Source of the DNA: Semisulcospira habei
Lineage: Eukaryota > Mollusca > Gastropoda > Semisulcospiridae
NCBI GenBank assembly: GCA_036245525.1
Contig: BTPG01000007.1
Coordinates: 167,304,148 to 167,368,147, forward strand
Reading direction: 5' to 3'
Length of the DNA stretch: 64,000 bases
Positions 4,567 through 63,874 of the stretch are shown in pieces. The notes below the pieces were generated by a model, which saw only the letters and a program-made list of their open reading frames with translations, made no database searches and was not told where the DNA came from. The position numbers and the translations under genes were made by a program. How positions within the stretch are numbered: position 1 is the first letter of the stretch; the number at the start of each line of letters is the position of its first letter.

Positions 4567-7500
4567 GTACATTTTGGAGGTCAAAATCTTAACCTGATAA
4601 ATAAGAAAACAACAAAACAACAGGGATAGGCACTAGCAATCAAGGAAACTGTTGCTTCATAGACTAAAGATTGTAGATCTGTGGGGGGGAGGGGGGGGGG
4701 TGTTGTTAGTAAGTTGCTGGATGAAGCCCTGTATGTGTATGAGTGCACTTCCAACCCCAAACGCATGGAAGCACAGATGTTGGTCCCCCTTTAACCCTTT
4801 AGGTGTCGGTAGCAGTTTTAGTTGCAATGATTCCGATGGGAATCATCGCAACTAAAATCGCTACCGACACCCAAAGGGTGAATGAAAATTATGTTGTTGC
4901 ACAGATGAAGCTGGGAAGAAGACAGGCAGCACGTCCCCTAGTTCTTTGCCAGATGACGCCCAAAGTGCCTTTGCTCTGCAAGCCTACACAGCCAGTGCTT
5001 CTGCTGGGATGGATGTCAAGTCTAGTCTGCCTCCTGAAGAGATGGAACGCAAACAAGGCAAGATATCCTCAGACTTGTGGTCAATGCTGTAAACTCTGCA
5101 CATTGCAGGGTGGTAACCAATAAAGAAAGAACAATGCTTTGAAATAAGTCCAACAAAAGTAGACACTACATTTTTTAAAGTGGACAAACAACGTTAAAGC
5201 CAACCATACAGAGTGCATAGGCAACTATAGTGTTTATCTGTTAAGGTCATATTTAAAAAAAAAAGAATTCAGGCCTGTGGTAGAAATTTCCTAATTTGAG
5301 AATTGTTTTCTGAGGGCTACATTACAGCCTAGAAGTGCTGAGATAGAGGCACCACCCTGAACTGCCATGGTCATTTTTGTCGCCATCTGTGTTTTGTCTG
5401 CCCTGAATGAGCTAAATCGCATTTAATCCTTTATCGGTTGGTGGTCGTGATGATTCCTGCAAGAATAATTGCAATAAAAAGTACCACTGATGACAAAAGG
5501 AATAATCTTACATCCTACAGCGGAGGAACGTTTGAAGGACAAACTAGCCGTTGCTGCAAGAGACAAGCTGGCGACCGCCACGAAGGAGAAGCAGCTGCAG
5601 GCAGAGCGAAAACGCAAGGCGGCCATGTTTATCAACTTGCTGCGAATTGTAAAGGAGTCACCGCTGCCTGAGGACAGAGTGTCACTTGACGGAGGTGGGC
5701 CATTTTTTTGTTCCTAGAGACTGGTGGGAGGGGTGGGGGGCGGGGGCCTCGTATGCGATAGCATAAATGATTCTGTATAGTCAGCTGTCACACACAGGTG
5801 GTACCTATTCCTTTGTCACTTCCCAACGTCAGTAAAGTATGGATTAGTAACCCCATTACTGTCAGTGGACGCAGATTGTGTTTTTGAAATCAGTCTCAGT
5901 TCAACGTTCAAAATCCCCAACCATCAAAGGAATATGGATGCAAAGTGGTTTCAGCAAGAGTCATAGATCTTCATGACCCCCTGCAACTATGAGGGCTCAT
6001 CAGGATCTGTGCTTCTTGCAGTTGAATGGGGTTAAGTTTTTCTCAATAGTGAAGGGGTTAATTGTTAAAAAGACATAAAATGTTTTTCCTTTTTTTCCCC
6101 AGAGTCAAAGCTTTCACCTGCATGCAGTGGACCGGCCTCACCCACACATATCGTTTACGAATACAACAACCGCTCGGGGACCCCGCTCCGTCTTGACACC
6201 AATTTAAAGGACAAAAAGGACATAAGGTCGGAATCTCCATCACACGGTCACAAGAAACGGAGAAAAAGGTCACCCACACCACCCAGTGCCTACGCTAACC
6301 CTAGAAGGTACTAAATATGCATTTTTCTTTAAAAGGTATTTTTTCGAAAAATACTTACCGATGACATGACAAATGGGAGTGTCTACTACGTGCTCAAATT
6401 CTAGCCTACGAACCCGTTGTGTGCAAACACAACCCGGGAGGCACTCGGGGAACCCTCCAGAGGGGCCAAGAGTTGTCTCCCGGACCTGCCTATCCGGTTC
6501 CGAGTCACCTGACTCGCCAGTCAGATACTAGGCTCACCAGCGGCAAGCGGGGCAAGTGGGAGGGTCCTCCGTGTCATGTCATCGGTAAGTATTTTTCGAA
6601 AAAATACCTTTTAAAGAAAAATGCATTTATTTCATCAAAAACATTACCGATGACATGACAAATGGGAGAATCACGAATAGGAGGAGGGTGCCGCCCCGGT
6701 ACTACCGGAGACCAAGACCGTCCTCCCATTGCTAATTCCCAGGTAACTAGCTAGGTGCGTACCTACGGCGCCTGCTGCGCCGGGAGGGAGTGCTGTGCCA
6801 CCGTGAGGTCCCCCAACAAGGCGAGGTTGTCTCGCTGTCCCGCCAGATCCCGAAGGTAGAAACGAGCGAAGGTAGATTCTGCTCGCCAGCCCACCGCGGC
6901 CACGATGTCCTTGACAGCGCAGTTCCGATCGAATGCGACGCTCGTGGCCATGGCGCGTACTTCGTGTGCGCGGATCTTCAGTCTCTGCGCTACGCGTGGG
7001 GAGAGATCCATGTATGCCGATCGTATTACCCAGCGCAGCCAGGAGGAGATCGTCTGGGCTGTGATATCAGTCTTGCCCTGGCGTATGGGCAGGAAGAGGC
7101 GGGAGCGCCCTCTACGGGTAACTTTGGTACGGCGCAGGTAGATGCGTAGGGCACGCACAGGATCCTGTCGCCGAGTCTCCGGAGAGCAGGCAGGCCCTCC
7201 CAGGGGCCGCAAGGTGATGATCTGTGGAGCAGTTAGGGGCGACCTTGTTTTGGCAATAAAGTTGGGGTCCGTTAAGAGCTGCACGGAGCGATCTGCCCTG
7301 AACTGGAGGCAGTCTGGGCGGGTAGAGAGAGCGTGTAGCTCGCTAACTCTGGACGCGGTGGCCAAGGCTAGAAGGAAGCAGGTCTTGCGTGTCACATTTG
7401 CCAGAGGGGCTAGAGCGAGTGGCTCGAAGCGGGATGAATTCAGCCACGTCAGGACCCAAGGTAGGTCCCAGCGAGGAACGAGAGAACGCTGAGTCGGACG

Positions 7501-10500: not shown

Positions 10501-13500
10501 CAACAGGTGGGCCGAGAACACATCCCGAAGCTCACGAAAGGAGGGGGGCTGAGGGAGAGTCTTGAACTTCTTTACCTGTCTACCCGCGTCGACGAAGGCA
10601 GAAGGCTTCCTCTTCAGGGGGGGGGGGAAGGAGGGCAGTCCTCTGCCGGAAGCGTGGCGGAGATGAGGCGAGCGACCTCGTCGAGAGCCAGAAGAACCTC
10701 TGTGCGGGAGGAGGCCGGTAACCCGTGGGCTGTCGACGCATCCGAAGGAGAGAGCGGCGAAGGGGAGCGGCTGAGACCTCCGAGGAGAACGGAGATGGAA
10801 TCATCAGGGAGAAGACTCAACGAATCGTCGTCCACGACGCCGTGAGCCGTCGAAGAGGGACGGCGACCGTGACTCCGAGAGTGAGCAGCTCGACGAGGAC
10901 GAGGGGAGCCACAAGGCGCCGAAGCACGCAGGGGAGAGCGACGTCCGCGACGGCGAAGCAACGCACTAGAGGAGCGGGAACGGCGGCGGCGACCAGACGA
11001 GCGATTACGAGCTGGAGACCGTGATCCCCGGGAACGAGGAGGAAGGAAAGAGGCTGGGCGAGGGGAAGGGGAACGGAAGGGACGAGGCAGACGGCGGGGA
11101 ACGTGGGACGAACGCCGCGAAGAGGTAGAGCACGAAGGCCCATGGTCCAGATGACGAGAAGAATCACGAACTGTACGACGCTCACGCGAAGGAGCGCGAG
11201 AGTGGTGGTCAGACTTCGATCGCAAGGAGGAACTGGACACAGGTAGTGGTGTGGTGAGTGTGCGCGAATGTCTCCGCGAGCCGGACTCTGTGGCGAGGCG
11301 GGCTCGCAGCGGCCGAGGGGGATCCAAGGCCTTCCTAGGAGACGAGTGGGGACCGGTTGACCATGGACGGCGCGAGGCACGTCTCTCCGAACTGACCTCT
11401 GTCTCGAGATGGGTTCTCTGCCTGTCGTAAGGCTTGGTCCAAGCGCGTTCCCTCCTGGGAACCCGCGCCTCGAACTCCCGACTCCGCACACTACCTTGCT
11501 GTGTCCGCTGTGGAGATCTTTCCAGACTGGGGCCATCGGGGGCAAGAGCGGTCGGGGCGCCTGAGATGACAGCCGGCACTTCCGCAGGTCTTGCAACAGG
11601 CACAGGTGTCGGGCGTTCACGTCGGTAGAAGCTCCAAAGTTGGGACCAGCGGAGCTCCGGCCAGACGGCGCAAACGTCACAAGAACGCTCAGATGTACAG
11701 CCGACACACGGCAGGCAGACCTTGTGCGAATCCGAGGGCCACTGGAAACCTGCACACTGCGTGCAAGTCATCAGGAGGGCACTGCAACACACCAAACAAA
11801 CAACGTGCCGGTACGTGGTCGAGACCAACAGGGCTCGTCCTACCAAGGGGAACCGTACCGAACGATAGGGACAACAGGGCTGTGCCCCCCGGCTATACTG
11901 TTGTAGCGCCCGAAGCTAAGCTTGCGTCTTCATAACCAAGCCTACCCCAGCCAGGCTGGAGAGGAATGTGCGCCAAACGACAATAGGGCCGAAAGGGCCG
12001 CGCCCTCAGGCAATAATGCTGTAGCGCTCTAAGCTAAGAGTGCGCTCTCGAAACAAGCATACCCCAGCCAGGCCAGAGATGCAACATGAGCCACGCGCCG
12101 CAGCTGTTTTAAACAATGCTCCCCGAAGGCTACCAGGGGAAGCCAGTAAATTTCACCCCAAAAGGGGAAAGGCGAGGGCACCAGGGCCCCGCCGAGCTAA
12201 GAGTCCCCGCTCAACAAAACCCACACAACACGAAACAAGGTAGAGTCCAAAGGCACAGGCCGGTACCCCGCCCGGGGACCGGCTCCGGGCACAACTAACT
12301 ATCCTACCTCTCTGCCGAAGCGGTAGCGGGAGAAGAGACGTCCATGTCGCCACCGGCGAAACGGAGGGAACCAGCAGGTCCGCCAAGCGAAGCCAACCAA
12401 GGAGGACGCCAAGCTAAGAAGCGCAAGCGAAGCTGCAGCGAAGCAAGCAAGAAGCGAAGCAGAAGCGAAGCAACAGGCGAAGCAAAAGTCACGGCGAACT
12501 CGAGCACCAAGACCGACCGGTCGAAGGGAGCGCGAGGCTAGAACACATCCGAAGGTCGTGAGCCTACGTAGCTGACTGGCGAGTCAGGTGACTCGGAACC
12601 GGATAGGCAGGTCCGGGAGACAACTCTTGGCCCCTCTGGAGGGTTCCCCGAGTGCCTCCCGGGTTGTGTTTGCACACAACGGGTTCGTAGGCTAGAATTT
12701 GAGCACGTAGTAGACACTCCCATTTGTCATGTCATCGGTAATGTTTTTGATGAAATAAAGGGCTTGCTGGTTTTTGTTTGTTTGTTTATTTAACCCTGAG
12801 GCTGATTTTGTCAAATTTCCTTATTGCCATATGAAGGCTACATTACATATTAGAAGATGGATCAACTGTTTTAGTTCAAGGGTGGTGCCAGAATAGCTTG
12901 GCGCCTCAGGCGCCAAGCTATTCTGGCACCACCCTTGAACTATCAGTCAGATTTATGTCAAGCAATGGGTGTATTAGAATGATAAGGGTTAAAGGTAGGT
13001 AACATTCAGCAAAGTTCCTTTGTGAAATAAAGAGATCGGCATAAGGCCGCCTGTACTCAGAATAAATCATTCAGACCGTGACACGGTTGGACAGAAACAA
13101 CCAATGTCTCGGGAAAATTAAAGACAGGAAAAATGGTCATTCCAAGCATTAATTTATAGGCAATGTTCTGTAATTTAAAAACCTGTGCGTGTGGAAAAAA
13201 ATAAAAATTTTGCTCCCCCAGGTTTAACCTTATGGATTTCGGTAACACTTTTTGTTGAGGAGATTCCTCAGCAAGAAGTGCCACCTACAGCCAGTGGGTT
13301 CAAAACTATAATCCGCCCTGTGTGCCGGTCTGGAGTTTGGACCTTACAGCCTAGAGTTATGTCATCCAAAATCACAGATCATTGCACAGTTTTGCTTTTT
13401 CACCCATTTAACCCTAATGCCACATTTCCTACATCGAGGAGTTGTCACCAATTGTGTACCAGATGCAGGAGATGGGTGGACAATGATAATTTAAGGGTGG

Positions 13501-16449: not shown

Positions 16450-16663
16450 TTAACCCATTTAGCCCCACATCCCTACAGCAGGAGATGGCTTGACCACGAT
16501 AATTCAAGGGTAGTGCCAGATTAGCTTGGCGCCTGAAGGCGCCAAGCTAATCTGGCACTACCCTTGAATTATCATGGTCAAGCCATCTCCTGCAACTGGT
16601 ACATAGTCGATAGGCAACACCTCCAAAATTTGAGAAATGGGACCTTGGGGCTAAAAGGGTTAA
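16450..16663. mobile_element. TTAA-bounded MITE, family A (GTAGTGCC/GATTAG subtype)
   Basis: It runs from TTAACCCATTTAGCCCC to GGGGCTAAAAGGGTTAA. The core stem includes AAGGGTAGTGCCAGATTAGC and GCTAATCTGGCACTACCCTT around a GGCGCC tip. The outer 13-17 bp are also inverted, so the whole 214 bp folds. Confidence 0.88.
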
Positions 16664-20503: not shown

Positions 20504-20909
20504 AACAACATTATGCGAAAACCGGCCGTCTGGCTTTTCCAGTTCATATCGATAATTTATCATGACCACCACCGGGGGATCCTCTGGTGCAAAGTAAGGA
20601 ATTAAAAAGAAGAAGAAGAAAAAAAAAAACTCCCTCCATTCCCCTGCCAACCCACAACCGCACCCCCACGCTGAAGTGTATTTTCATTCACTTGAGCTAA
20701 TAATACCGACAGTCCGCTAACCCGTTGGCTGTTGGTACCGCTTGTCGTCGCTGTGGTTCCTACAGCAAACATCGCGACAAAAAGCGCTACCCGAGAACCA
20801 AAGGTTTAAACTGCCATGTCTCGTCAGATCTTGTTTCAACAGCAGAACCTACTCATTTTGCAGCAACCACATTTTTTTTCTTTTTTTTTTTTTCCAAGGA
20901 AAAGTGATC

Positions 20910-21110
20910 TTAACCTTTTTAGCCCCGGATCCCTACGAGCAGGAAATGGCTTGACCATGATAAATCAAGGGTAGTGCCAGATTAGCTTGGCGCCTGAAGG
21001 CGCCAAGCTAACCTGGCACTACCCTTGAATTATCATGGTCAAGCCATCTCCTGCAACTAGTACTAGGCGACAAATTTTGAGAAATGGGACCTTAGGGCTA
21101 AGAGGGTTAA
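20910..21110. mobile_element. TTAA-bounded MITE, family A
   Basis: It runs from TTAACCTTTTTAGCCCCGG to TAGGGCTAAGAGGGTTAA. The core arms are AAGGGTAGTGCCAGATTAGC and GCTAACCTGGCACTACCCTT around GGCGCC. Confidence 0.86.
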
Positions 21111-22206: not shown

Positions 22207-22207
22207 G

Positions 22208-22878: not shown

Positions 22879-22949
22879 CAAGAAGCATAGAACCTCATGA
22901 GCCCCTGCAGCCGCGGGGGCCCATGAGGTTCACGTTGATATGCTTCTTG
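22879..22949. repeat. Family B hairpin, variant arms
   Basis: CAAGAAGCATAGAACCTCATG pairs with CATGAGGTT...TATGCTTCTTG. The changes from the usual core (GAAGCATA for GAGGCATA, AACCT for ATCCT) are matched on both arms. A six-base insertion sits in the right arm. Confidence 0.72.
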
Positions 22950-24645: not shown

Positions 24646-24704
24646 GATTGTTGTTGAGTGCTAGAGCGCTTGCGTCTTTTGATTGATTTGAGTGATGTAG
24701 TACT

Positions 24705-24796
24705 TTAACCCTTTAGATGTCGGTATCGATTTTGGTCGCGGTGATTCCTGTAGGAATCACCGCGACCAAAAGCGCTACCGACAACCAAAGGGTTAA
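24705..24796. mobile_element. TTAA-bounded palindromic MITE, family D, copy 2
   Basis: It runs from TTAACCCTTTAGATGTCGG to ACAACCAAAGGGTTAA. The stem contains TTTGGTCGCGGTGATTCC and GGAATCACCGCGACCAAA, a perfect 18-bp match that differs from copies 1 and 3 on both arms. Confidence 0.88.
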
Positions 24797-25331
24797 AAGG
24801 AAATATTGTTCACACGAGAATTGAGTATACATGTGAAACCGGAGAAGAACATAGACATTTTGAGTGACGGATTTGTTCCCTAAGTGGAGTGTTTTCCTCA
24901 CAGGTTGTCTGTACTCAGCACAGTACTCACAGAGACAGCACTTAACTTTCATGTTGGATCTTGTTGTTGAAACACTGAGAGTCAACATGAAAGTTTTGTG
25001 AAATCTGGACAAAACTACCACAAAGCGACAAATTTCATTCATAGAATGAAATGTATGGCTAAGCGCTATGTTTTGCCTATTCACGGCTTTTACCGTGAAA
25101 GGTTTTGAGCTGAAGTTTTTTCTCTGTAGATTTTGCAAGCCGGAACTGAGGTATCTGACACTCTAGACTCGTCTGTTGAGTAGTGACTACAAGGCGAACG
25201 AACCAAGACAGCTCAAACAGAGGGTTAGTGAATAAGTTATTGTATATCAGCTGTAAATACGCACATTCCCTATGTGGATTATTATCAGCTGAGCCCGTAA
25301 GGCCGCTGTAACGGTTATATCAAATTAGGAT

Positions 25332-32942: not shown

Positions 32943-33165
32943 TTAACCCGGCCTTTCAGCCCCGGGCCCCTGCAGCAGGAGATAGATTGATCATGATAAT
33001 TCAAGGGTAGTGCCAGATGAGCGTGGCGCCCGAAGGCGCCAAGCTCATCTGGCACTTCCCTTGAATTATTACTGATCAATCCATCTCTTACGACTGGTAC
33101 ATAATCGTTAGGCAACACCCCCGGTCAAAATTTGAGAAATGGGACTTAGGCGCTAAAAGGTTTAA
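32943..33165. mobile_element. TTAA-bounded MITE, family A (GATGAG subtype)
   Basis: It runs from TTAACCCGGCCTTTCAGCCCC to GGCGCTAAAAGGTTTAA, with arms AAGGGTAGTGCCAGATGAGC and GCTCATCTGGCACTTCCCTT. Confidence 0.85.
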
Positions 33166-33475: not shown

Positions 33476-33697
33476 CACCGGCTCACAGACTATAAATGCA
33501 AGTGTATCGTAAATATTTCCGAAGCAGTCAATGCTTAATTAATCTACATAGGTGCATAACTTGACGCGTTCAATACCAATTGTTATCCCGGCACCTTTTA
33601 GCTTGCTGGGGCAGTGGCGTGCTGTAAACGCGAGACAGATACCCACTGTCTAATAGTGACAACACCAGCAGACGCTGATCAATCAGCGGCATTGGAA

Positions 33698-33760: not shown

Positions 33761-33811
33761 GCCAGGCCGGAGAAATCATGGCTTGGATGCTATACTGAAC
33801 AGGCCCGGATC

Positions 33812-38931: not shown

Positions 38932-39144
38932 TTAACTCATTCTACCCCAGACACACCACAGCAAGATAAGAATCGACCATGATAGTTTAAGGGTGATGCC
39001 AGAATAGCTTGGCGCCTATGGGCGCCAAGCATTTCTGGCATCACCCTTGAACTATCATGGTCGATCTGTGTCCTGCACTGAAATGCAGTCTTCAGAGGAC
39101 AACGGGAACATTTAAAAATTCGGTGTTGGGGTAGAATGAGTTAA
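38932..39144. mobile_element. TTAA-bounded MITE, family A (GGTGATGCC subtype)
   Basis: It runs from TTAACTCATTCTACCCCAG to TTGGGGTAGAATGAGTTAA. The core arms are AAGGGTGATGCCAGAATAGC and TTTCTGGCATCACCCTT. It is nearly identical to the element at 48258. Confidence 0.88.
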
Positions 39145-40680: not shown

Positions 40681-40713
40681 AAGCTACATTATAGTACTTT
40701 CAGATAAGGCTTT

Positions 40714-40839
40714 AGTTCAAGGGTGGTGCCAGAATAGCTTGGCGCCTAGAGGCGCCAAGCTATTCTGGCACTACCCTTGAACTATTTTAGTCAACCATAT
40801 TTCACACACTGGTGTATTCCGAATGATATTAAGGGTTAA
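40714..40839. mobile_element. Family A MITE (GGTGGTGCC subtype)
   Basis: Core 40714-40783 is AGTTCAAGGGTGGTGCCAGA to CTGGCACTACCCTTGAACT. The right end is ATATTAAGGGTTAA. The left end is not sharply defined. Confidence 0.8.
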
Positions 40840-44300: not shown

Positions 44301-47300
44301 ATTGTTAAATGAAGGTTTTATTACAGATTAGGAGTTAGATCCACCATTTCAGTTCAAGGGTGGTGCCAGAATAGCTTGGCGCCTCAGGCGCCAAGCTATT
44401 CTGGCACCACCCTTGAACTCTCACAGTCACATTTATTTCAAAGCAATCGTGTATCAGGATGAAAATGGTTAACCCGGTGTGTGCCAGCTGACGCAGACTG
44501 CCTTTCTGCAGTCGTCGTGGATTCAACACCAAAATGTCTCAGCTGTCACAGGAACAGGGATTCCAAGTGGGGTCAGCAACGAGGTATAGATCCTCATGAG
44601 CCCCCGCAACTGCAGGGGCTCATGAGGATCTACACCTCGTTGCAATTGGATTGTGTTCAAATCTTTTCGGCACTGAACGGGTTGAAGTCACTTCGGTTAT
44701 TTTGTAGCTTGAAGTCACTTCGGTTATTTTTAGCTGTAAGTCACCGCGGCTATTTTGTAGCTTTTAGTCAATTCGGTTATTGTGTAGCCTTATTTCACTT
44801 CGGGGTTTTTTTTGTTTGTTTTTTTTCTTATTTTTTTTTTTAAATTTTTAGCTTTAGGTCACTTCCGAGATGTAACGTGGTGTCACCAAAGATCCTAGGT
44901 CACTTCGGTTATTTTGTAGCTTTAAGTTACTTCATTTGTGTGAGCAGAATAGAGACAAAAAGGCGACTGTCAAGCGTGTAAAACTTGAAGCAAAGAAATT
45001 CCCAACGGAGAAAAAAACACGCTTTCTAGCGGGTTTTTTTTTTCTATTAAAAAAAAATTGTGTGAACTATTATTTGAATTATTATTTGTCATATACCAAT
45101 TTAATATCTTTTTGTCGTCGGGGGCCAGCGATCTGTGCAATAACTCAGGTAAAAGGTGTCTAACTCTGTATGTAGCTGTTTGTCCAGTGTTGAGTGATTT
45201 CCCTTGGTGCGTATACTAATTATTATGCTTGGACCGTAAGTCCGTTTGTGTAAAAAGCAAGAATTCATTGTAATACGGGGCAGAACAGTGTAGCGTCTGT
45301 TGGGTGGGGTGGAGCGCGTATGGGCTTTCCGAGGAAGAGATACTGTCTTGAGGGAGCCCAACTAAACTAAAGACTGAGAACGGAGCAATTTTCGTCGAGG
45401 AGACATGACTGATTCCAGGACTGAGCTCGACAATAAGCGGCGGCACTACCGACGGCCAAACGATTCACTCATTCCAGACGTAAGACATACGGATACGCGG
45501 CTAAAGCCGCGTATCCGTATGTCTTACGTCTATAATGGGTTAACGTGTCAAGAAAAGCACACAAGAGTTACCATTGTCACACTAAAACCCGTCTTGTAAA
45601 TTGGTGCTCTGAACAACGGAATCAAACAAAATTATTCCAGAAAAGATCTCCCATTTCGATCATAGATTAGACTCCAGTGCTTTCGCTCGGTGAGACAATA
45701 CCACTCTTTGTGCCGGGACCGCCAAACGTATTCTCGTGCCAACTTCAGGCACGTAGAAGGACGGGGAGGAGTAGGGTGTTAAAGGGGAGTGGGGGGTTTG
45801 GGTGGGGGGGGTTGGGGGGGGGGGCGGGGTAGACATAGTTAATTTGCCGTTGAATTGAAAGAAAGCGCATGTACGTGCGTGCGTGTGTGAGTGTGCTCTT
45901 GTTGTATTGCACCAATTTCCAGTTGAACCGGCGGCCAACTTGAACCCGACACTATTTTTATGCGAAATGTGACTTTTCAGGAATAGAGCTGACACTTCAG
46001 CAATAACTATAAAATTAACTTTTTTCATTCTGATACACTACTGATTGAAATAAATTGGACTGTGATAGTTCAAGGGTGGTGCCAGAATAGCTTGGCGCCA
46101 GAGGCGCCAAGCTATTCTGGCACCATCCTTGAATTAAAATGGTTGATCTATCTCTAAATCTTTAATGTAGCTTTCATAGGACAATAAGCTTTTCTTGAGA
46201 AAAAAAAATCAGCCTCAGGATGAAGTGGGTTAAACACGCCTATAGGCTGGGTCTTACCTCAGTAGGCTGCCTCCGTTTGCAAGAGACATAAAGTCTCACG
46301 AGCAACAGCAACAACAGGGGCTCATAAGAATATATGCCTCTTTGCTGGCACAGATTGGGTCTGCTTACATCTGCGAAGCATATTCTTCTAGGTTTAAGCC
46401 GCGCCGAATATACTACAACGGTGTTTAGGTGATACCGAGAATCTCATTCCAGTAGTTTTAAACCCTTATCCTACGAGAGAAAGCGAGTAGGATAAGGTTT
46501 TAAGACCTCACCTAAACACCGATGTAAGATTCTATTTCTCACTCAACTTTTTCTTGGCATAAATCCGACTGTGAGTTGCAGGTTTTCTGCACACGCCTAA
46601 CCACAACACAGCCGCCATTGTGTCTTTAGCAAAGAACATGACGTCATTTGTAATGTGACGTGTACATTTTGGATGTCGGACAACTGTTTCTGCATGAAGA
46701 CGTAATGGCGCAATACGTGACGCCAGAGTGCCAGTCGTCACTGTAAAATGCTGTCGATTGCGCTTGAGCTGAAAGTAGGTCAAGTTTCAATATCGCGTGT
46801 GCCCGTACCTTTTTGTTGACCGGACTTTCTACAAGGCAATTTTGTGCACGCTTGGCCGTTCACACAGCAGAATTGTATCACACACGCGTGATACAGCCAA
46901 GAAGTATCTCACGTGTGTGATACAGCTTTTCTGCTCAAAGGCAGCAGAGAATGAGGTGCGTAAGAAAAACAAGTTCCGCCGCGTCAACTAAAGATAATGT
47001 GAACATTCGCAATCAGGTTTTGTCCCCTTGGGAAAGGGGAGGGTTGGGGTCATTTAGAGGTACGATATCAATATTTTGTTGACCAAACTTTATACAGGAC
47101 AATGTTGTGCACACCGCCGTTAACGACGCACGGCTGTATCACACACTTGTTTGTGATACAGCTTTTCCGCTCCGCAAAGGCAGCAAAGAATGTGTGTAAG
47201 AATGGTATAGATTTTTACATCGGTGTTTAGGTGATACTGAGAATCTCACTCGAGTGGTTTTAAAACCTTATCCTACGAGCGAAAGCGAGTAGGATAATGT

Positions 47301-50300
47301 TTTAAGACCACGAGAGTCAGATTCTCAGTATCACCTGTACACCGATGTAAGAATATATTTCTTACTCACCTTTTTCTTGGCATGAATCCGATTTGAGTTG
47401 CTCACAAACCAGATATAGGTGAGGCTAGCGCTGGCAGAATTGTACACAAACCAAGGGGAATCACTCAGCGCTGGACAGACAAACAGTTAGATCCCCTGCC
47501 CGGCCCGCCTATCAGGCACCCCGCATTCGCCAGCCCACAGAGAAATACGCAGGTATAGAACAAGACGATCATCTACATCTCTCATTGTGCATACATACAT
47601 CAGTGAGGGATGTAGATGATCGTCTTGTTCTATACCTGCGTATTTCTCTGTGGGCTGGCGAATGGGTGCATGATAGGCGGGGGCAGGGGCTCTAACTGTT
47701 TGTCTGTCCAGTGCTGAGTGATTCCCCTTGGTTTGTGTACGATTTGATTTGGCTTTCGGCACAGCCGCCATTGTGTTGGTAAAATTCTAGACGTAATTTG
47801 CATTGTAATGTGACGTCAATAGTTTGGATGCCAGACAGTTCCTAGATGATGATGTAATAGCGCAAGCCATGAGGCCAGTTGTCACTAGTCGTCACTATGA
47901 AATGAGGTCATATCATGTGAGCTGAAAGTAGGTCACGTTTCAATATCGCGGGTGCCCGTACCTTTTTGTTGACCAGACTGATGACTTTCTACAAGACAAT
48001 TTTGTGCACGCTTGGCCGTTCACACAGGAGAATTGTATCACACACGTGTGATACATCCAAGAAGTTTTTTCAGGTGTGTGATACAGCTTTTCTGCTCAAA
48101 GGCAGCAGAGAATGAGGTGCGTAAGAAAAGCAAGTTCCGCCGCGTCAACTAAAGATAATGTGAACATTCACAATCAGGTTTTGTCCCCTCGGGAAAGGGG
48201 TGGGAGGGTTTGGGTCATTTAGAGGTACGATAAAATGCATTTTAAGTTCGGCGCACCTTAACTCATTCTACCCCAGACACACCACAGCAAGATAAGGATC
48301 GACCATGATAGTTCAAGGGTGATGCCAGAATAGCTTGGCGCCTATGGGCGCCAAGCTATTCTGGCATCACCCTTGAACTATCATGGTCGATCTGTGTCCT
48401 GCACTGCAATGCAGTCTTCAGAGAACAACGGCAGAATTTGGGGATTTCGGTGTTGGGGTAGAATGGGTTAAGTGTAATCCCACCGCGCAAAGGCCATTGG
48501 GCCGACGTCGGTCCGGACAGCCTTTAGCGCATTAGGATCCGTCACTGCAGACTGTAATGATTTTTCACCCAAACATACCCCCCCCCCCCCCATACCAATT
48601 GCCGTCTAACACTGGACTCATGAAAAACAAAACAGAACTTCTCTTTGCCAAACAAACGCATTCCTTGTGCCCAGCGCTCAGGGGGGGGGGGGGGGGGGGG
48701 GGGGGGGGAGAGGAGGCACAGAACAAAATCGCAAGATTAAGTGGTCATTTTAAGCAAATGTTTCTGTGTGGAAAAAGTGACACCACGACGGACATCGTAG
48801 TCGAATCCATTACAAAGAACCCTTGACCATTTCGCGTTATTCTCTGGTTTCAGTCACATACTGAGTTGCAAGGACTAGCATTGCAGACTGTAAGTATGCT
48901 TTTTGTGGTAGCACAAACTATCATTTTCATACATTGTTTATGTTTGTTTATATATAATGGATGGGTCCAAAGGAACGGCATTACAGTTTGGCACCGGCGC
49001 GGCCGTCGCAGGAGCTGCCAGAACAAAGCTGAATGTAACGACGGACTGCCTTAGGGGCTCCGACTCCGGATTTTCCCACGAGGTTTACCCCTGAAGCCTT
49101 TTCCAGGTCAGGATATGACAGCAAGGCAGCGGCGGTTTTGATTCAGAATTTTCCTTCTCCTAGATGGGCTGCCATCCAAGGCTTACGAGCCCCATCTGCC
49201 CGAGACTGGTGGGCGGGAACGCCTAACTCCCCGAACAAGTCCTAAGGACTTGCCCATTGACCAAGCTACGATTAATTGTAGATGTCTGCAAGAAGGACAT
49301 GAGAGCACTGGACATAGACACTGGGTCCTGGAAACGCCTTGCGGATGACCGTGCAAAGTGGAGAAGTATCCTCTACCCGGCAACACCTCAAGTCAGTGGA
49401 AGAGAAGATGTCGAAAGCAGCAGCAGACAAGCGGGCACGCAGAAAGGAGTGCAACAACTCCATCATACCAGCAACCACCGTGTACATTTGTGATCTTTGC
49501 AGCAGGGACTGCCACTCCCGCATCTCCTCTACAGTCAGTCACAAAAGATGCTGCTTGATATCCAGCTGAGCAGGCAATCAGTTCAGAACAACTTGGATTC
49601 ATTATCTATGGTCGATTCAGACCGACAGAGGCCCATTTATACATATAGGGGAGGGGGGGGGGGAGGGAGGGTAATTTTTTTTTGAGCGACTTGTTTCTGT
49701 ATCTTGCTAAACCGTAACTCTCTCACACGCTACGTGATGATCTGTGATTATTTACATCTCGGCGTGAGCTGCAAGGCCCAGAATTGCAGACACGCACACA
49801 AACGGCCCTCAGATAATTGTACATGTCTTAGTATCGACAACGATTGTTCCAAGGGAGTGCTTGATTTACTCGACACTTTATGGCGACAAGCTAATCATAG
49901 TCAAGCACTACAGTTGAAGTTGCAAGGTCGGACTATGTCTGTCTGCTGGTCTGTGATTTTGGACCTTACGGCGGAAAGCCGTAAGGTCCAAAATCACAGA
50001 CCAACACACGTTGCGAGTGACCAAGGAGATGAATGCAGTGCGCTCAGTTCATGAGCTAGAAAGTCGTAATCTGAACACCAAAGAGGTCATAGGAACACGG
50101 ATATAAAGTGGTGCCTGCAACAGACGCAGATCTCACGAGCCCCCGCAACCCCGGGTGCGTCATGAGGGTCTATGTCTGTTGCAGCTGGATTGGGTTTCAC
50201 CTTTTCCAACTATTAGTCTTTTACATGTCAACGGTCTGCTCGACATACTGACGAAGCACGCCAAGGTCTTATCGCTGGCAAATGTGGAGGGACATAGAGG

Positions 50301-51757
50301 CAATGCGACTCTCGGTCACACTGCAGTTGACTGGCTGTTACAGTAGAACCTGTTTTGAGCGGCCACCACTATGAGAGATCACCTGTCATTAAAGACCATC
50401 ATTTAGGTGGCTGTAGCTGTGACTGTGGCTGTCGCCCCCTAGATGATGGCCTTTAATGACAAGTGACTTGTCTAAATCGTCTCTTGAGATGACTGACACC
50501 TGTCCTGCAAGATCAAACAGGTTCTATTGTACACTGAACGCTAAGGCCGACTCACTGGCCAGTAACCTTAGGTCATATAGGAACACAGCGGCAATGCTAG
50601 CTCCCTTCTTGGATTTGATGTACATGCAATACCCAGCATTTCTTTCGCTGCATACTTGTCACACTGGTTGTCTCCCGCGATTCGCCGGCTATCGTTAGCA
50701 GCGAATCACGGGAGTATGCTTGCACACTTACACAAACTGTTACGGATCATAAACGGCGACGCAGGGGAAAATATTGTAGCGAAGAAATGGGATATGGGGC
50801 GAAGGATAAAAGCAGTAAGAAACGAACTGCCACTAGGTCCCGTCATCAGGTGGATTGCATATTTTGATAACGTGCTAAACTACCAGCATTGGCCAGCCGG
50901 GGGTAGGACACACTATACATCGTATGGGGGGCAGATCATGTCTTGTAGTGTTTAATTTGTGCATACATAGGTTTCTTAGCAGACGCCCGCCTTGCTCTGT
51001 GATAACAAAAGTGGCAGGCATAATTAGATCGCAGTGGCGCTCCCGCAGTCCTCGGTTTACCCCCATACACCACCCCGCTCAACGTATTTGCATGTTTTCA
51101 AAAAATCGTTAACCTTTTATCCTCGGGACCCCGCAGCAGGAGATGGATTGATAATGATAATTCAAGGGTAGTGCCAGATGAGCTTGGCGCCTACCCTTGA
51201 ATTATCATGATCAATCCATCACCTACAACTGGCCCCCACCCGGGTCTGCCCTAGGGGACTTGGGTGGTGTTAACTACTTCAGTTTTAGTTCCCAGGGTCA
51301 CCCTGGTCAGCCCCACAGGGTGGGTTTCCCCCTCTATTCTGGGGCATGTGTTTCTGCCTACCTTTGGTCCATTCACCTGTATTTTCCTTTTTTAAACTCT
51401 CCCTACTGTTTGCGCTGTTTGTAGCTCTTGATATTGGATGTGTGTTGCTAAATGGTCTTAGCTTTATTTAGCGTATTAGACCGGCTGGCGACATACATTC
51501 AATATTCTGTTTAGTTTTTTTTTTTTTTTCCACAAGCAGTGCAGGCACGTCCTGAGAAAGTCTTGTTGCTGTCGGGACGTTGAGCAATGAACAATCAACC
51601 AACCATTCTACAAATGGTACATAGTCGTTAGGCGACAACCTCCAAAATTTGAGAAATGGGACCTTGGGGCTAAACGGGTTAAGGGAATCAGAATTTGCTT
51701 GGCCGCACAATTGCGCTTAAGGGAAGGCTTACTCCTCTCTCTCCCACCCCCTTTTAA

Positions 51758-51800: not shown

Positions 51801-53808
51801 GAATTAATTAATTAATTTATTATTTTTGTGTTCTTCATCATCTTCCTTTCTTGTTACTTTTTTTTTGTTTTCTATTTTTCTTTTCCTTTATTTATTTTTT
51901 CATTTTAAATGCATACAATACACATACTTCCCAGGCGCCAGGCTAATCTAGCACTACCCTTGAATGAACTATCATGGCCAATTCGTCCCCCGCTGCAGTG
52001 TTTCAAGGGTGATTGTGCCAAGTAGGCCCTGGCACTCAGATTTTGTAGCCCTATTGACCGCCCCCCCCCCCACCTCCCCCCCCCCCCCCGACCTCTTTTG
52101 CACAAATTAGCTTGTTCGCTCATCGCTGACCGGTATCATTATTCACACCATAGGTGTTCAGCGGTGAGTCGACTGAGAGTGGTCATGCAAAACCCATAGT
52201 TTGTCATTCCTGAAACATTAGTTAACCCATTCAACCCCAAGACCACATTTCCCAAATTGTGGAGGTGCTGGTTAAGGACTATGTACCTGTTGCAGGAGAT
52301 GGACGGACCATGATAACTCAAGGGTAGTGCCAGATGAGCTTGGCGCCTTCAGGCGCCAAGCTCATCTGGCACTACCCTTGAATTATCATGGTCCATCCGT
52401 CTCCTGCTGCAGAGTCCCGGGGCTAGATGGGTTAATCATCTAGGTATTGTTGTTAGGTACGCGCACCGTGCGAGCGACAAAGGTCAGTTCACGGCGAACC
52501 AGTTTTAATTCTGAACAGCTAGAAACAAGGCAACGTACACAAACAAGACAATAAGTGTCAACACAATTCAGTGTCGAGGAAAGACTTAGCCATTTCATAA
52601 TCCAACCGCAAGAGACACAGCGGATCCTCATGAGCCCCCTGCATTTGTGGGGGTTCATGAGGATCTATGTCTCTTGCTGAAACCACTTTATATCCATGCT
52701 GGTTTTGAATTAACAAAGTTTAGAAACCAATTTGCTACCACTAACTCATAAAGACGCACGTCTTAAAAGTAAGTAAAATCTAACCTTTTCTTCACTACTC
52801 ACAAACCAGATAGGTGAGGCTAGCGCTGGCAGAATTGTACAACAAACCAAGGGGAGTTACTCAGCACTGAGTAACTCCCCTTGGTTTGTTGTATAACCTT
52901 TTCTTCTTCAAGCACATTAATTTTGTACACATACGCTATGTATGTACATCATCTTTACTTGAAAGAGTAAAGGTGAAAAGTCTAGACTAGCATTAATCAG
53001 GGTTGGATCTTGGGGGGGGGGGGGGGTTTACAGGGGTTCCGGAACCCCCCCCCCCCCACCCCACCCCTTGTTTGATATTTTGGCGAATGGTGAGAGTCTT
53101 AACACACGTACACCCCCACCCCCCTTTCGGCCCCTGGAAGCAAGGTCTAGCGTCGGGAGGCCTTTTGTATCAGGTTGAAGGTCCCAAACAAAAAGTTGGA
53201 CCGCCCCCCCCCCCTCGAGGTAATTGATCCGCCACTGTTAATATAATGCAAACTTTAAAAAATGAATGATGTGACAGTGGGGCTTTGAGGGCGCGAGGTG
53301 CACCCACTCTTAGGCGATTGGCTGGGGCACGTTACTTACATTATACTGCCTAGCAAACTTACTTAGCAAACTGTGTTGCTTGGACACCTTGGGTCAGTTG
53401 CATGAGGGATCTTAGTCCTGCACCAGTCACTAAGCAAGGTGCGCCACTATAGCGGCACACCTTGCCTAGTGGCTGGTGCAGGACTAAGCTCGGTCATGCA
53501 ACTGGCCCCCCGATTTCGCACGGTCTTACCGTCTTTTACACCTGCAAAGCCAGTGGGCGCAGTTCATTCAACGCCAACGAGTTCCAGCCGTCTACGGAGC
53601 AAGAGGCATAGATCCTCATGAGCCCCCGCTGTCGCGGGGGCTCATGAGGATCTATGTCTCTTGCAGTTGGCTGATGTTTGTTTAGTCCCGGCAGTAAATG
53701 GGTTAACAATCATTTTATAGCCTGCGAAAGTCAGGGTAGTGTTGTGTTTTTTTCCCTTGCCCGTAATGTGACTTGTAACTAAGTCTGCGACAAACAACGT
53801 GTGTGTGT

Positions 53809-53839: not shown

Positions 53840-56800
53840 GGTGATTGGACACGTTTCCGTGACGTTGCGAACAATGTAGGATTGTTTTAGCATTCTGTCT
53901 CAGTATTTGCTCACATCCAGAACTATATGGCATCGAAGCCCTAAATTGTGAATTGCTGTAATCACAGTTGCTGCAAAGTTGTCGTCCTCTAACACGAAAA
54001 AAAAAAAAAAAAAAAAAAACCCAAAACAACAACAACAAAAATACTGCAAGATGCCTGACAGTACTGCCTGGATAGAGTCAGGGAACTCATCGGATACTGT
54101 GCATAAAGTAGGTCACTCCTTCTTTGCTGCCGTTGAGCGGAAAAGCTGTATCACACACGCGTGTTACAGCTTGTGTGATACAGTCGTGTTGCATGAACGG
54201 CCAAGTGTGCACAACATTGTCCTGTAGAAACTCTGGTCAACAAAAAAATATGGGCACACGCGATAGTGAAACTTGACCTACTTTCAGCCGCTCACGCGCA
54301 ATGACATCATTTCACAGTGACGACTGGCGGCACTCTGGCGTCATGTCCTGCGCTGTTAGGAACATTTGTCTGGCCTCCAAAATATTGACGCCACAGTATC
54401 GTCTAAACACCGATGTAAGATTCTATATTTCTGACTGTCTTCCCTCCTCTCGTCATTTCCATCCACCCACACGTCACTATACATAGGTTTCGTTCCTCTT
54501 CCCTGGTGCCACTCTTACGTACACACGTTCACTATTCAAACTTCATCATTTAAATTAGCGCTTTTGTGTATTATTGTAAGAACATTTTTAACTCATTCTG
54601 CCCGCGACACACCACAGCACGATATGGCTCGACCATGATAGTTCAAGGGTGGTGGCAGAATAGCTTGGCGCCTATAGCTATTCTGCCATCCACCCTTGAA
54701 CTATCGTGGTCGATTCGTCCCCTGAATTGTAATGCGGTCCTCGGCGGATAACAACAAAATGTGTGTATTTCGTACCCCGGGCACAATGAGATAACGGAGA
54801 TATAGCGATCTATCAACCCTTTACTGTCTGGATTACGTCGCTGTTGTAGTACCGGTGTACATGGGAATCAAAATAAGTTATAACAAAAGGCCCCGCCACA
54901 CGTGCCGGTTGTGCCCCGATTTTGAAGCCGATTCCGATCCGATTGCGATCGGTTGACGTCATTTATCCGATCCGGTCCCAATCGGCTGGGAATCGGGTGT
55001 CTAGAACCTGCTCTATTTTTCGGATCCGAATCGGCCCCGGTTGTAAGCTTTAACCAATGAGAGCGCGTCTCGCAAAGCACGTCGTTTCCGTTTGCAAATG
55101 GCGGAACACGCCTGCTGTGATCAGTACCACCGCCGTTGCTGATGTTTCGGACGCCTCTTCCCGAATATGATGCAAAACTGCTGATAGTGCAAGCACATCA
55201 TCATCACTGTCAAAACTAGCATCCATTTCGCAGAACAGGTACGACCTTGATCTTCGGTTCAAACCGGTCGGCTAAACAAGTCGGGAAATGTGTGGCAGTG
55301 CACACGTTTTTTTTAGTCCGGCCCGATCACCTACCGATTCGAAACTGATCGGGAATCGGCCTCAAAAACGGGCATGTGTAGCGGGGCCTTAAAGGCCCCG
55401 CCACACATGCCCGATTTTAAGGCCGATTCTTGAGCAGTTTCGAATCGGAGTGTGATCGGACCGGACTGCAAAAACGAGTGTGCACTGCCACACATTCCCC
55501 GACTTTATTTAGCCGACCGGTTTGAATCGAAGATCAAGGTCGTACCTGTTCAGCGAAATGGCTGCTAGTTTTGACAGTGCCGGATGATGATGTGCTTGTA
55601 TTATCGGCGGTTTTGCATCATATTCGGGAAGACTGAGGCGGGCGAAACATCGGCAACGAAGTTGGTTGACTGATCCGCTTCCACTGATTTGCAAACTGAA
55701 ACGACGTGCTTTGCGAGACGCGCTCTGATTGGTTGAAGCTTACAACCGGGGCCGATTCGGATCGGAAAAATAGAGCAGTTTCTAAACACCCGATTCCCAG
55801 CCGATTGCGATCGGATCGGATATTTGACGTCATCCGATCGCAATCGGATCGGAATCGGCTTCAAAATCGGGGCACAACCGGCAAGTGTGTCGGCGCCTTA
55901 AGTGTACACCGAGCAGAACGCTCGTTAACACAACACCACTTTTTCCAATTATTTGTATCCTGATTTTCGTGGATTATTGTACTACGCCTTTCTCTGCATT
56001 TGCAACCGAGCCACTGAGTTGACGGCTGGGCCCCGAGGAGACATGGTCTAATTTTTTTCTCTTCATATAACTAGGGTCAAGGAGAGGTATGGCCCAAGCC
56101 TGCAAAAGAGATATCGCCGGTATTATGACTCTGGCCATGCACTGTCTGGAGGAGGTGTGGCCCAGCCATTCGTGTCCTGCCTTTTGCCCACCCCCTTCGG
56201 ACCTTCACTGCAAGGGGACGCAGACTGCGTCTGAAATCTGTGTTAACTCAACGCTGAACAGCCCCAGCCGTCCAAGGAACATAGATGCAAAGTGGTGTCA
56301 GCAAGAGGCACAGATCCTCATGAGCCCCCGCAACTACGGGGGCTCATGAGGATCTATGCCTCTTGCATTTAGATGTTGTTTGTTGTGTTCCCAAATCGAA
56401 GAGGTCAATCGCTAACTTGTGTAGCGTCGTTGTGTCTGTTTCAGGCCCCGAGCGACGAGCGCCGAAAGCGGGCCACCAGCACGACAGAGTCCATCAAATC
56501 GGCCCCTAAGGCTGGGGGCGGGGCCACCAAAATGTCCATCTTCCGATTGGTCGCCGCAACGCGCGCCTGGCAGCGATTGGCTAAGAAGAAAAAAGCCGAG
56601 ACGCCAGTGGTCAAATACGAAAACACGTACCGTCTCGAGCCTGACGAGAAATCGAAATTCTCGGCCACTAAAGTGGAGAGGATTTTACGAGATGTGCTGG
56701 AAACTCGTCTCCGCAACGTCACGTACAGTGCCGATACGTGTCGACGCGTCACGACGGATCTGGCGACCGTCATCAAGTCACGCACTAAGACGCTCAACTT

Positions 56801-57220: not shown

Positions 57221-57308
57221 GACTACGATCGTTCGAGGGTGGTGCCAGAATAGCTTGGCGCCTACAGGCGCCAAGCTATTCTGGCACCACCCTCGAACGA
57301 TCATAGTC
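57221..57308. mobile_element. Family A hairpin with matched changes on both arms
   Basis: GACTACGATCGTTCGAGGGT pairs with ACCCTCGAACGATCATAGTC. In other copies the sequence is TGATAGTTCAAGGG / CCCTTGAACTATCA; here CGATCGTTCGAGGG / CCCTCGAACGATC keeps pairing. The following 57310-58180 shows no gene or repeat I recognise. Confidence 0.85.
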
Positions 57309-59502: not shown

Positions 59503-59718
59503 GTAAACCCATTTAGCCCCGAGTCCCTACAGCAGGAGATTGATTGACCATGATAATTCAAGGGTAGTGCCAGATTAGCTTGGCGCCTGAAAGGCGCCAA
59601 GCTAATCTGGCACTACCCTTGAATTATCATGGTCAATCCACCTCCGGCAACTGGTACATTGTCGTTAAACAACACTTCCAAAATTTGGGAAACGCACCCA
59701 TGGGGCTAAAAGGGTTAA
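59503..59718. mobile_element. Family A MITE (GATTAG subtype)
   Basis: AAACCCATTTAGCCCCGAG to TGGGGCTAAAAGGGTTAA. Arms AAGGGTAGTGCCAGATTAGC and GCTAATCTGGCACTACCCTT are perfect. Confidence 0.87.
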
Positions 59719-61121: not shown

Positions 61122-61152
61122 ACGAACACGTGTTTTTCGTGTTGTGTTGCAG

Positions 61153-61305: not shown

Positions 61306-63874
61306 GTGAGTGGACCAGTCTGGGTTACCGCGCTAACGCCCTCATTTTAACCCACTGAGCCCCGACAAGCTACAACAGGCTGTGGTTCGCCCTTTGATAG
61401 TTCAAGGTTGGTGTCAAAACAGCGTGGCGCCTCCCGGCGCCAAGTTATTCTGACACCACCCTTGAACTATCACGGTCGAGCTGTCTCGCCAGGACTGTAT
61501 CGTAGACCTCAAATGATGTCTCAGAAATTTGATAATCTCGTCCTCATGGCCTACGCACTGATGTATTTCCCAAATTTTGGAGGCGTCATCTAACAACTAT
61601 GCACCAGGTGCAGGAGATGGATCGACCATGATAATTCAAGGGTAGTGTCAGATTAGCTTGGCGCCGATAGCCAAGCTGATCTGGCACTACCCTTGAATTA
61701 TCATGGTCGACTCATCTCCTGCTGTAGGGCGTCGGGGCTGAATGGGTGAAATGAGTGGAAGTCCGACGCATACATCAGTGGAAGTCTGACGCACACATCA
61801 GTGGAAGTCCGACGCACACATCAGTGGAAGTCTGACGCACACATCATCGGAAGTCCGACGCATACATCAGTGGAAGTCCGACGCATACATCAGTGGAAGT
61901 CCGACGCATGCATCAGTGGAAGTCCGACGCATACGTCAGTGGAAGTCCGACGCACACATCAGTGGAAGTCCGACGCACACATCAGTGGAAGTCCGACGCA
62001 CACATCAGTGGAAGTCCGACGCACACATCAGTGGAAGTCTGACGCACACATAATTGGAAGTCCGACGCATACATCAGTGGAAGTCCGACGCACACATCAG
62101 TGGAAGTCCGAAGCATGTATCAGTGGAAGTCCGACGCACACATCAGTGGAAGTCCGACGCACACATCAGTGGAAGTCCGACGCATACATCAGTGGAAGTC
62201 CGACGCATACATCAGTGGAAGTCCGACGCATGCATCAGTGGAAGTCCGACGCATACATCAGTGGAAGTCCGACGCATACATCAGTGGAATTCCGACGCAC
62301 ACATCAGTGGAAGTCCGACGCACACATCAGTGGAAGTCCGACGCACACATCAGTGGAAGTCTGACGCACACATCATCGGAAGTCCGACGCATACATCAGT
62401 GGAAGTCCGACGCATACATCAGTGGAAGTCCGACGCATGCATAAGTGGAAGTCCGACGCATACATCAGTGGAAGTCCGACGCACACATCAGTGGAAGTCC
62501 GACGCACACATCAGTGGAAGTCCGACGCACACATCAGTGGAAGTCCGACGCACACATCAGTGGAAGTCCGACGCACACATCAGTGGAAGTCTGACGCACA
62601 CATCATTGGAAGTCCGACGCATACATCAGTGGAAGTCCGACGCACACATCAGTGGAAGTCCGAAGCATGTATCAGTGGAAGTCCGACGCACACATCAGTG
62701 GAAGTCCGACGCACACATCAGTGGAAGTCCGACGCATACATCAATGGAAGTCCGACGCACACATCAGTGGAAGTCTGACGCACATATCGTGTACAGGCGA
62801 CGCAACGCTATGCATGCAGGATGAACGGCGAGACTATCCACTGCCGGAACTGCAGGTGTGACTCCCTCACTGTCAACACACTTCAAACGATGCTCCAGTG
62901 CAAGAGGCAAAGATTCTCACGAGCTCTCCAGCAGCCGGATGCAGATCGACTGAGTCCTATTCACCCCATCACTGCCAGTGCACGCAGGTTGCAATTAGTT
63001 TTGAAATCGTAAATCCAACGTCAAAGATCCGCGGTCGTCAAAGGAACGCGGATGGACAGTGGTTTTCAACAAGAGGCTTAGATCCCCATGAGCCCCCGCA
63101 GTTGCGGGGGCTCATGAGGATCTATACCTCTTGCAGTCTTGTGCTGCTCAGTTTTTCTCGGCAGTCAGCTGGATAACCCCGATGATGACAGTTGCGCCTG
63201 GAGGAGGTATAGCCCAAGGATACGTTTGCTGGGACGGCCAGGGGCAGGTACGGCCCAAGTATAGGAGAAGTAGATGTGGCCAAAAAACAACAACATACCA
63301 AGTCTAAAGGCCTATAGCCGTACAGCAAACACCTGACCCCCCTCCACACCCTCCCCGCCCCCAGGTTTCCTACGCCAGTGGCCCGCGTACAGCCAAGCAA
63401 AACTTGAATAAGGAAGCAAATTTAATCAATGTAGACCCAACGCACTACATGTACAGCTGGAGACAGATCGACCATGATACTTCAAGGCTAGTGCCAGACT
63501 AACTGGGCGCCTGATGACGCCCAGTCAATCTGGCACTAACCTTGAATTACCACGGTCGATCTGTCTCCTACAACTGGTACATAGTCGTTAGGTGACACCT
63601 CCAAAGTACGGGAAAAGCTGCCGGCTTGGGGTTAAAAGGGTTAATTAATCTACACCACCAGCACCACCCAGGACTAAGACAAGCTTTTGGTCAATGGGTT
63701 CTGCAGTTGGGCGCTGAATACAGCACTGAGACAGGGTAAGCTAGCTACATATCAAATGTTATGTCTACTTACAGGAAAACGGGGTGCAAATTTGCAGCGC
63801 CGTTTGAAAAGAGTGATGACGTGGGCATCTTCGCCCACCTGCAGGAGCTGCAACAACGCATCCATGAGCTGATG
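61163..63874 (+). CDS. Small secreted protein of unknown family, exons 2 and 3 (3' end beyond window)
   Basis: Coding exons 61163-61305 and 63775-63874 join in frame (phase 2, split codon GA|G) into 81 codons; the donor at 63874 is ATG|GTAAGC, so more exons follow outside. The N-terminus MAVGKAVLFGACALMVVMVA is a clear signal peptide, probably cleaved after TPVEG. The mature part starts QDRFPRRMARLLKNLVAQLA, then EKTGCKFAAPFEKSDDVGIF and a Leu-rich helix HLQELQQRIHELM that could form a coiled coil. One Cys is visible. I do not recognise the family. Confidence 0.65.
61347..61500. mobile_element. Family A MITE, diverged, in intron 2
   Basis: TTAACCCACTGAGCCCCGAC at the left. Core 61396-61471: GATAGTTCAAGGTTGGTGTC with GACACCACCCTTGAACTATC around a CGCCTCCCGGCG tip. 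The right terminus is unclear. Confidence 0.72.
61550..61751. mobile_element. Family A MITE, reverse orientation, shortened tip
   Basis: Arms GATAATTCAAGGGTAGTGTC and GGCACTACCCTTGAATTATC with the tip GGCGCCGATAGCCAAG; the right end CGGGGCTGAATGGGTGAA abuts the minisatellite. Confidence 0.8.
61752..62789. repeat. 23-bp minisatellite, about 45 units, with a 24-unit higher-order repeat
   Basis: The unit is AGTGGAAGTCCGACGCACACATC. Variants (CATACATC, CATGCATC, TCTGACG, ATCATCGG, AGCATGTATC) recur in the same order: the rare AAGCATGTATC unit is at 62111 and 62663, exactly 552 bp (24 units) apart; the ATCATCGG unit recurs after 529 bp (23 units). As 23 is not a multiple of 3 and no stops form, several frames stay open, giving spurious 23-residue repeat peptides. 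Confidence 0.95.
62898..62945. repeat. Family B arm fragment
   Basis: GTGCAAGAGGCAAAGATTCTCACGAG is one arm without a partner. Confidence 0.5.
62960..63177. mobile_element. Family B MITE
   Basis: TTCACCCCATCACTGCCAGTG to GGCAGTCAGCTGGATAA. Core 63070-63134: CAAGAGGCTTAGATCCCCATG with CATGAGGATCTATACCTCTTG, tip CCCCCGCAGTTGCGGGGG. The stretch 63180-63450 has no recognised feature. Confidence 0.8.
63450..63644. mobile_element. Family A MITE, altered core
   Basis: Core 63466-63562: GATCGACCATGATACTTCAAGG and CCTTGAATTACCACGGTCGATC, with CTAGTGCCAGACTAACTGGGCG / CGCCCAGTCAATCTGGCACTA inside. The right end is TTGGGGTTAAAAGGGTTAA. It ends 130 bp before exon 3. Confidence 0.8.
63775..63874 (+). 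CDS. Secreted-protein gene, exon 3
   Basis: The acceptor GTCTACTTACAG ends at 63774 and the donor GATG|GTAAGC follows 63874. The 100-bp exon continues the frame of exon 2 with no stop. Confidence 0.65.

Follow-up and report, generated by a model that had tools for sequence, protein, structure and literature searches.

The window, by which we mean the whole 64-kb stretch of DNA analysed here out of an animal genome of 1.98 Gb in 507 contigs (contig C7, 167304148-167368147), carries retroelement reading frames, a Tctex-1 domain and short palindromic repeats. Two inverted copies of a retroelement lie at 883-3518 (+ strand) and 6763-11915 (- strand), with a reverse transcriptase match (PF00078) in 8016-10049. 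We take this inverted pair to be DIRS-like; similar palindromic segments accompany it at 3626-3714 and 6572-6660. Among the best 120 of 417 relatives of the reverse transcriptase at 8016-10049, the best named ones are two proteins from the gastropod Batillaria attramentaria (63% and 54% identity), and the others are mostly unnamed metagenome proteins; that the host is a gastropod is accordingly a guess. A LINE-like element at 26949-30233 is spread over several frames and gives endonuclease (PF03372) and reverse transcriptase (PF00078) matches. The open frame at 56373-56972 encodes the Tctex-1 domain (1.9e-29) and begins just past a B copy at 56302-56365, and a tandem array of 45 copies of 23 bp, open in frame, occupies 61754-62788 and adjoins the A copies at 61398 and 61632.

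A near-palindrome scan of the window retained 62 places. Profile searches assigned 22 places to family A and 24 to family B; clear places of families D and E number three and two, respectively, and decayed D copies are also present. All four families are short palindromic repeats, and A, D and E have TTAA, piggyBac-like ends. An A element measures about 200 bp, bears TTAA and CCC-type ends, and has its palindrome set between a short (S) and a long (G) side; we refer to the inner 34 bp of each palindrome arm as the core. The copies discussed below are the following.

12872..12942, A core of lineage A3, comprising two 34-bp arms and the loop
13465..13556, A copy with a central deletion, outside the counts
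16500..16571, A core, lineage A1; palindrome 16478-16593
20961..21032, A core, A1
32997..33068, A core, A1g (GATGAG)
38983..39054, A core, A2b (GTGATG); later changes one-armed
40713..40784, A core, A3; 35A in the S arm only, common to other A3 copies
42307..42378, A core, A2; centre TATG/CATA, orientation differs from A2b
44350..44420, A core, A3
46066..46136, A core, A3
48309..48380, A core, A2b
51138..51224, A copy with a central deletion, outside the counts
52314..52385, A core, A1g
54629..54713, A copy in which 39G is paired and the centre has an indel
57229..57300, A core with paired 24C and 29G, absent from the other 50 counted copies
59554..59626, A core, A1
61398..61469, A core with paired 39T, as in L017:2509 and L024:119
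61632..61703, A core, A1, with a central deletion
63478..63548, A core with 47A and 50G paired in both arms
44577..44642, B palindrome whose arms both carry 8T and a 1-nt insertion (CAACGAGG)
22879..22949, B palindrome with paired 14A, as in two L027 copies
33695..33761, B palindrome in which 6T and 15T are paired
50118..50181, B palindrome with paired CAACAGAC
53600..53663, B palindrome close to the family consensus; arm-specific GAGGC/GAGAC difference
4791..4882, D palindrome
24704..24797, D palindrome, TTAA at both ends
34671..34765, D palindrome
20718..20808, D copy, decayed
41642..41724, E palindrome whose arms both read GCCGCCTACGG; TTAA at each end
45464..45543, E palindrome, AAGACATACGG in both arms

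TTAA was found at the S end of 14 of 17 window A copies, at the G end of 11 and at both ends of 10 (0.11 and 0.14 expected by chance for the two ends), and at the S end of 42 of 51 copies in a larger sample. By eye, it also stands at both ends of D 24704 and E 41642 and at one end of B; within 41642-41829, the TTAA end of the E copy abuts the TTAACCCC end of the B copy at 41766. We classify A, D and E as palindromic MITEs of a non-autonomous, piggyBac-like (TTAA) kind, to which B may also belong. The piggyBac transposase domain PF13843 has at least 116 matches in the genome (116 of 1058 candidates scored), many of them without a stop inside the matched stretch, and 8 of the 12 transposase loci read (L029-L040) carry perfect 14-nt TIRs (CCCATATAAGCCTG) beside TTAA. 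The A ends open with CCCAT and then diverge from the CCCATATAAGCCTG TIRs of these eight loci. Twenty stretches of two contigs (C1 and C2; 195 kb without N) held 50 two-armed A copies, a density of about 0.26 per kb; were it uniform across the genome, A would number roughly half a million copies. A genome query with the A2b copy 48258-48440 returned at least 40 places of 95-100% identity (40 of 90 candidates scored), and the A core pattern was not found in the searched collections of viral contigs and genome contigs. Longer palindromes outside the four families lie at 47438-47744 (about 307 bp) and 54887-55899 (an inverted repeat of about 1 kb).

The first-pass annotation had proposed that the two stem arms of each A, B, D and E copy match each other better than they match other copies. 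The stem states on which this was based are present: in D at 4791, 24704 and 34671, in E at 41642 and 45464, in A as GTAGTG, GTGGTG and GTGATG with GATTAG, GATGAG or GAATAG, and in B as GAGGC, GAAGC, GATGC and CAACAGAC. The proposal itself holds in A and also in B, D and E, but the covariation is confined to the inner hairpin (about 34-42 bp per arm); the outer arms of A2 and A3 group by side. For A we used 17 of the 22 window places, leaving out 13472 and 51143 (central deletions) and 16065, 49833 and 51932 (one-armed or too decayed). Their inner own-arm distance was 0.070 against 0.136 in permuted pairings (P = 5e-5), a difference that holds within two subfamilies, and window B gave 0.169 against 0.217 (P = 2e-5; 19 of 24 places). 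In 15 of the 17 A copies (54624 and 61617 were left out owing to central indels), 10 of 34 stem pairs had changed on both sides, with 25 such cells against 7.1 in shuffles and none of 500 shuffles as high. Control pairings slid by 1-3 columns gave only 0-3 both-sided pairs in the same copies. Simple chance as the cause of A arm pairing is ruled out by the shuffles and the slid pairings.

A larger A sample, which takes in the genome stretches, gave the same picture. Starting from 80 paired places, 79 had full arms, 63 of these had a 0-8 nt loop, and 58 remained once five with indels were taken out; seven more were dropped as they had been chosen by similarity to the query. In the resulting 51 copies the own-arm distance was 0.070, compared with 0.139 for S-S and 0.141 for G-G, and permutation within A1, A2 and A3 gave 0.102 (P = 5e-5). 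With orientation ignored, larger samples of the other families yielded 0.165 against 0.218 for B (P = 5e-5; 51 pairs, one dropped), 0.249 against 0.315 for D (P = 5e-5; 16 pairs, three dropped) and 0.094 against 0.160 for E (P = 0.003; seven pairs). Some B copies in this sample are near neighbours, and their cells do not count as independent events.

In two respects the proposal is not borne out in its original form. The own partner was strictly the best inner-arm match in only 2 of the 17 window A copies and tied for best in 7, because lineage mates share states. Nor is pairing the prevailing outcome of change: singletons across the three A subfamilies comprise 69 one-sided and 7 paired changes, and window B has 90 one-sided and 14 paired cells. 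Thus the arms covary, yet one-sided decay is the commoner event.

Pairing stops towards the outer arms. Over the outer 22 bp of A, distances were 38% between own arms, 46% for S-S and 40% for G-G; in A3 they were 72%, 49% and 42%, respectively, so that the arms there go by side and do not follow the partner. In the outer-arm tree (22 columns, poorly resolved), four A3 G arms group together (97), as do five A2 S arms (92), and A1 arms mix. The side label needs nine changes on this tree, against an average of 11.6 in 500 shuffles, 34 of which are as low; a single clade of all S arms is rejected (P = 2e-4). On the inner-arm tree (34 columns, likewise poorly resolved) the sides mix fully: the label needs 14 changes, the shuffles average 10.5 and all 500 of them are as low. 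Here, too, one clade of all S arms is rejected (P = 2e-5). Clustering by side, which the annotation had named as the pattern that would speak against arm correction, is therefore found in the outer arms of A2 and A3 but not in the inner arms. By-side differences also occur in family F, where the arms of the copies at 16721 and 17010 differ from each other in the same way (by eye), and B position 7 holds an arm-specific state.

Most of the arm matching is inherited. The core states of A largely track subfamilies defined by the flanks, and the commonest paired states mark lineages (35A in 24 of 51 copies, 44T in 21 and 25A in 19), with rarer shared ones at 36A (5 copies), 39T and 45G (3 each). 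Several paired states that looked private to the window recur elsewhere, also paired: A 39T (61393) in L017:2509 and L024:119, B 14A (22879) in two L027 copies, and B 8T (44581), which occurs without the insertion in two L027 copies. In four window A lineages, covering 12 of 17 copies, all five core columns that differ between lineages are paired, whereas later core changes comprise 13 one-sided, one that is different in both arms and none that is paired (Fisher P = 1.2e-4). Of the between-lineage columns in the outer arms of these lineages, four are paired and 13 contain one-sided states. This contrast suggested that resident copies never gain pairs, a view that the 51-copy sample and the pattern scans described below corrected. 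At position 35, four of 11 A3 copies have A in just the S arm, one has it in just the G arm and two have it in both (one more S-only copy was dropped for an indel). One-sided intermediates thus exist and spread, and the one-sided state beside the both-arm state points to an intermediate that was later matched.

Paired changes are also found within lineages. Fine A lineages, covering 43 of the 51 copies, contain 8 paired changes in 6 copies, where 0.75 are expected with independent arms, beside 94 one-sided ones; two of the eight lie at a CpG position. Paired singletons in the genome stretches include 42A with 50C in L016:7605, 29C in L014:9365 and 31T in L021:8721. For two paired changes, exact pattern scans of the whole genome show whether they mark a lineage. 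The B arm with the 1-nt insertion (CAACGAGG) has 10 exact matches in the genome, of which two are both arms of 44577-44642 and eight lie at eight other places. In none of these eight does the partner arm carry the insertion; it is unaltered or different (by eye). The CAACGAGGT form occurs in the window B copy only, in both arms. The arm of the A copy at 63463, with 47A and 50G, has 11 exact matches, two being its own arms. Among the nine elsewhere, six of which are readable, none has both changes in the partner; the L042 and L046 partners share one of the two, and those of L043, L045 and L049 have decayed, are unclear or have been deleted. For both states answered, then, the change lies in both arms of one copy and does not appear to be inherited (exact patterns; states chosen as paired). 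As both were picked for being paired in the window, the proportions are not rates, and since exact patterns miss relatives with one further mutation, either state could still belong to a small decayed lineage. Copy-private pairs that are one-sided elsewhere are not given by inheritance alone. The annotation had held that arm-to-arm correction is needed, or else repeated birth of palindromes or selection on a fold. Correction is supported as an occasional event by the two copy-private states, but not as a rule, and the strong form of the claim, that the arms are generally kept equal, is not supported.

The core of A has diverged little. Relative to the lineage consensus, A1 diverges by 4.0% (core), 10% (outer arms) and 18-21% (flanks), and A3 by 4.4%, 18-22% and 24-29%, respectively; the unbiased A2b set (six copies) gives 2-3%, 1-9% and 10-15%. 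Overall, within-lineage core divergence is 1-5%, and the S-end TIR diverges by 19-25% over 13 positions, an upper figure because gaps were not aligned there. A search with the G-side flank only returned 76 places, 57 with at most 4 of 34 core mismatches and 9 with more than 10, by which ascertainment of conserved cores is rejected as the cause of the low core divergence. Since copying between arms would leave the rate of change as it is, the A core must be kept by another process, either selection for mobility or homogenisation. More speculatively, and we hold it to be doubtful, the central palindrome rather than the termini might be the conserved working part of these TTAA elements, with sequence and pairing preserved over many rounds of amplification. 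Each round or repair would involve a foldback duplex, one arm serving as template for the other, and the element would thereby constantly proof-read itself.

Rearrangement of the palindrome centre is frequent: a loop of 0-8 nt in register is missing from 16 of 79 A copies. The A palindromes of L015:8721, L017:7399 and others have central deletions, and the one in L015:8721 looks symmetric, with a new perfect centre, GAATTC. At 42307-42378 (A, TATG/CATA) and 63070-63133 (B, AACT/AGTT) the loop is the reverse complement of the lineage loop; loop inversion in both families is possible, with few variable letters to judge by.

We propose, with slightly better than even confidence, that these observations reflect inheritance from paired founders, decay mostly of one arm and, occasionally, the copying of one arm onto the other. 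Active lineages with paired inner cores would have seeded the genome, and resident copies would then decay mainly one arm at a time. A paired difference would begin as a mutation in one arm. At the hairpin of some copies, a subsequent strand event (template switching within the strand, or gene conversion from arm to arm) would then copy this mutation to the other arm or erase it. We infer template switching as the agent, and the lineage-level pairs would have arisen by the same arm-to-arm copying. The excess of one-sided over paired singletons implies that such copying is rare.

That the paired states are simply old subfamilies, founded by palindromes with their own paired states and decaying independently with no correction in resident copies, is an alternative that the annotation had raised and that describes much of the data. 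Most shared paired states are indeed old lineages (35A, 44T and 25A), several window-private states turn up elsewhere, and the window lineages combine five paired differences between them with no paired change later. A minority of paired changes is nevertheless copy-private (the two states answered genome-wide, in 44577-44642 and 63463), and the within-lineage pairs exceed the independent expectation (8 against 0.75); moreover, the way in which the founders became paired is left unaccounted for. As a complete account we consider this unlikely. Selection on a paired DNA core, with a foldback or symmetric core needed for mobility, only paired or near-paired copies amplifying and compensatory changes being kept, would fit the low divergence of the core relative to flanks (7-29%) and S-end TIR, as well as the paired state of all five between-lineage core columns in the window. 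It sits poorly with the A3 group in which a one-sided position-35 state has spread and with the arm-specific state at B position 7, and copy-private pairs need no amplification; we judge it quite improbable.

Selection on a folded RNA, a miRNA-like or siRNA-like stem, had also been offered by the annotation and finds no support. Compensatory changes do occur in A stem pairs, and Made1 provides a precedent of palindromic MITEs turned miRNAs (PMC1784062). Covarying pairs like those of structured RNA are thus present in A, but DNA-level causes give the same statistic, and wobble-type mismatches show no excess in the 51 A copies, with counts of 28 for the S-to-G strand and 44 for the opposite one, beside 50 transversions. 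G-U-type imperfect pairs in oriented B copies likewise show no strand preference (18 against 15). RNA selection was set aside for want of a wobble bias, although transcription from both strands would hide such a bias. No Rfam match at gathering score was found in the window, except for a tRNA at 22139-22209, and we regard RNA selection as very improbable. Equally remote, in our estimate, is ectopic gene conversion, in which the palindrome centre breaks and repair from another copy homogenises both core arms together. The rise of divergence with distance from the centre and the 16 copies without an in-register loop would suit it, but core states largely follow the flank-defined subfamilies, and another copy acting as donor would not make a pair that is absent from all other copies.

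Rare arm-to-arm copying on a background of descent, the reading we prefer, has counterparts in known systems. In quasi-palindrome correction or template switching, one arm of an imperfect inverted repeat is copied from the other, giving paired changes in one step, and such mutation has been described in rRNA and miRNA genes and in yeast reporters (PMC8794818, PMC3820800). The present case differs from these in concerning a high-copy mobile element in which lineage and copy-private states can be separated, and in being read from standing copies. A resembles piggyBac non-autonomous elements in its TTAA ends and CCC-type termini; unlike piggyBac and piggyBat, which have short palindromic motifs near their ends, it has a 70-bp internal palindrome (PMC11707139). 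With Made1/hsa-mir-548 it shares a short near-perfect palindrome (about 70-80 bp), a small loop and high copy number, but Made1 is mariner-related and its palindrome is formed by its TIRs, whereas the A palindrome is internal, less diverged than the TIRs and not known to yield a miRNA (PMC1784062). Galileo and other foldback elements also have long inverted arms, and exchange and instability shape their copies; Galileo, however, belongs to the P superfamily and has kilobase arms (PMC4168063). The available part of that paper does not mention arm-to-arm conversion for Galileo, and a literature search gave no title or abstract on arm correction in MITEs among the matches listed. Palindromic TTAA MITEs and template-switch-like correction are both known; the present case would place such correction in a high-copy family of natural elements.

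When compensatory changes occur in pairs, they are usually taken to prove that an RNA fold is functional. The same statistics arise here in a DNA repeat of many copies that shows no sign of selection on RNA, partly through descent and partly through copy-private matching in at least two copies, and such MITEs call for caution in covariation tests. With perhaps half a million A copies in the genome, these elements could yield a natural rate measurement of hairpin template switching.
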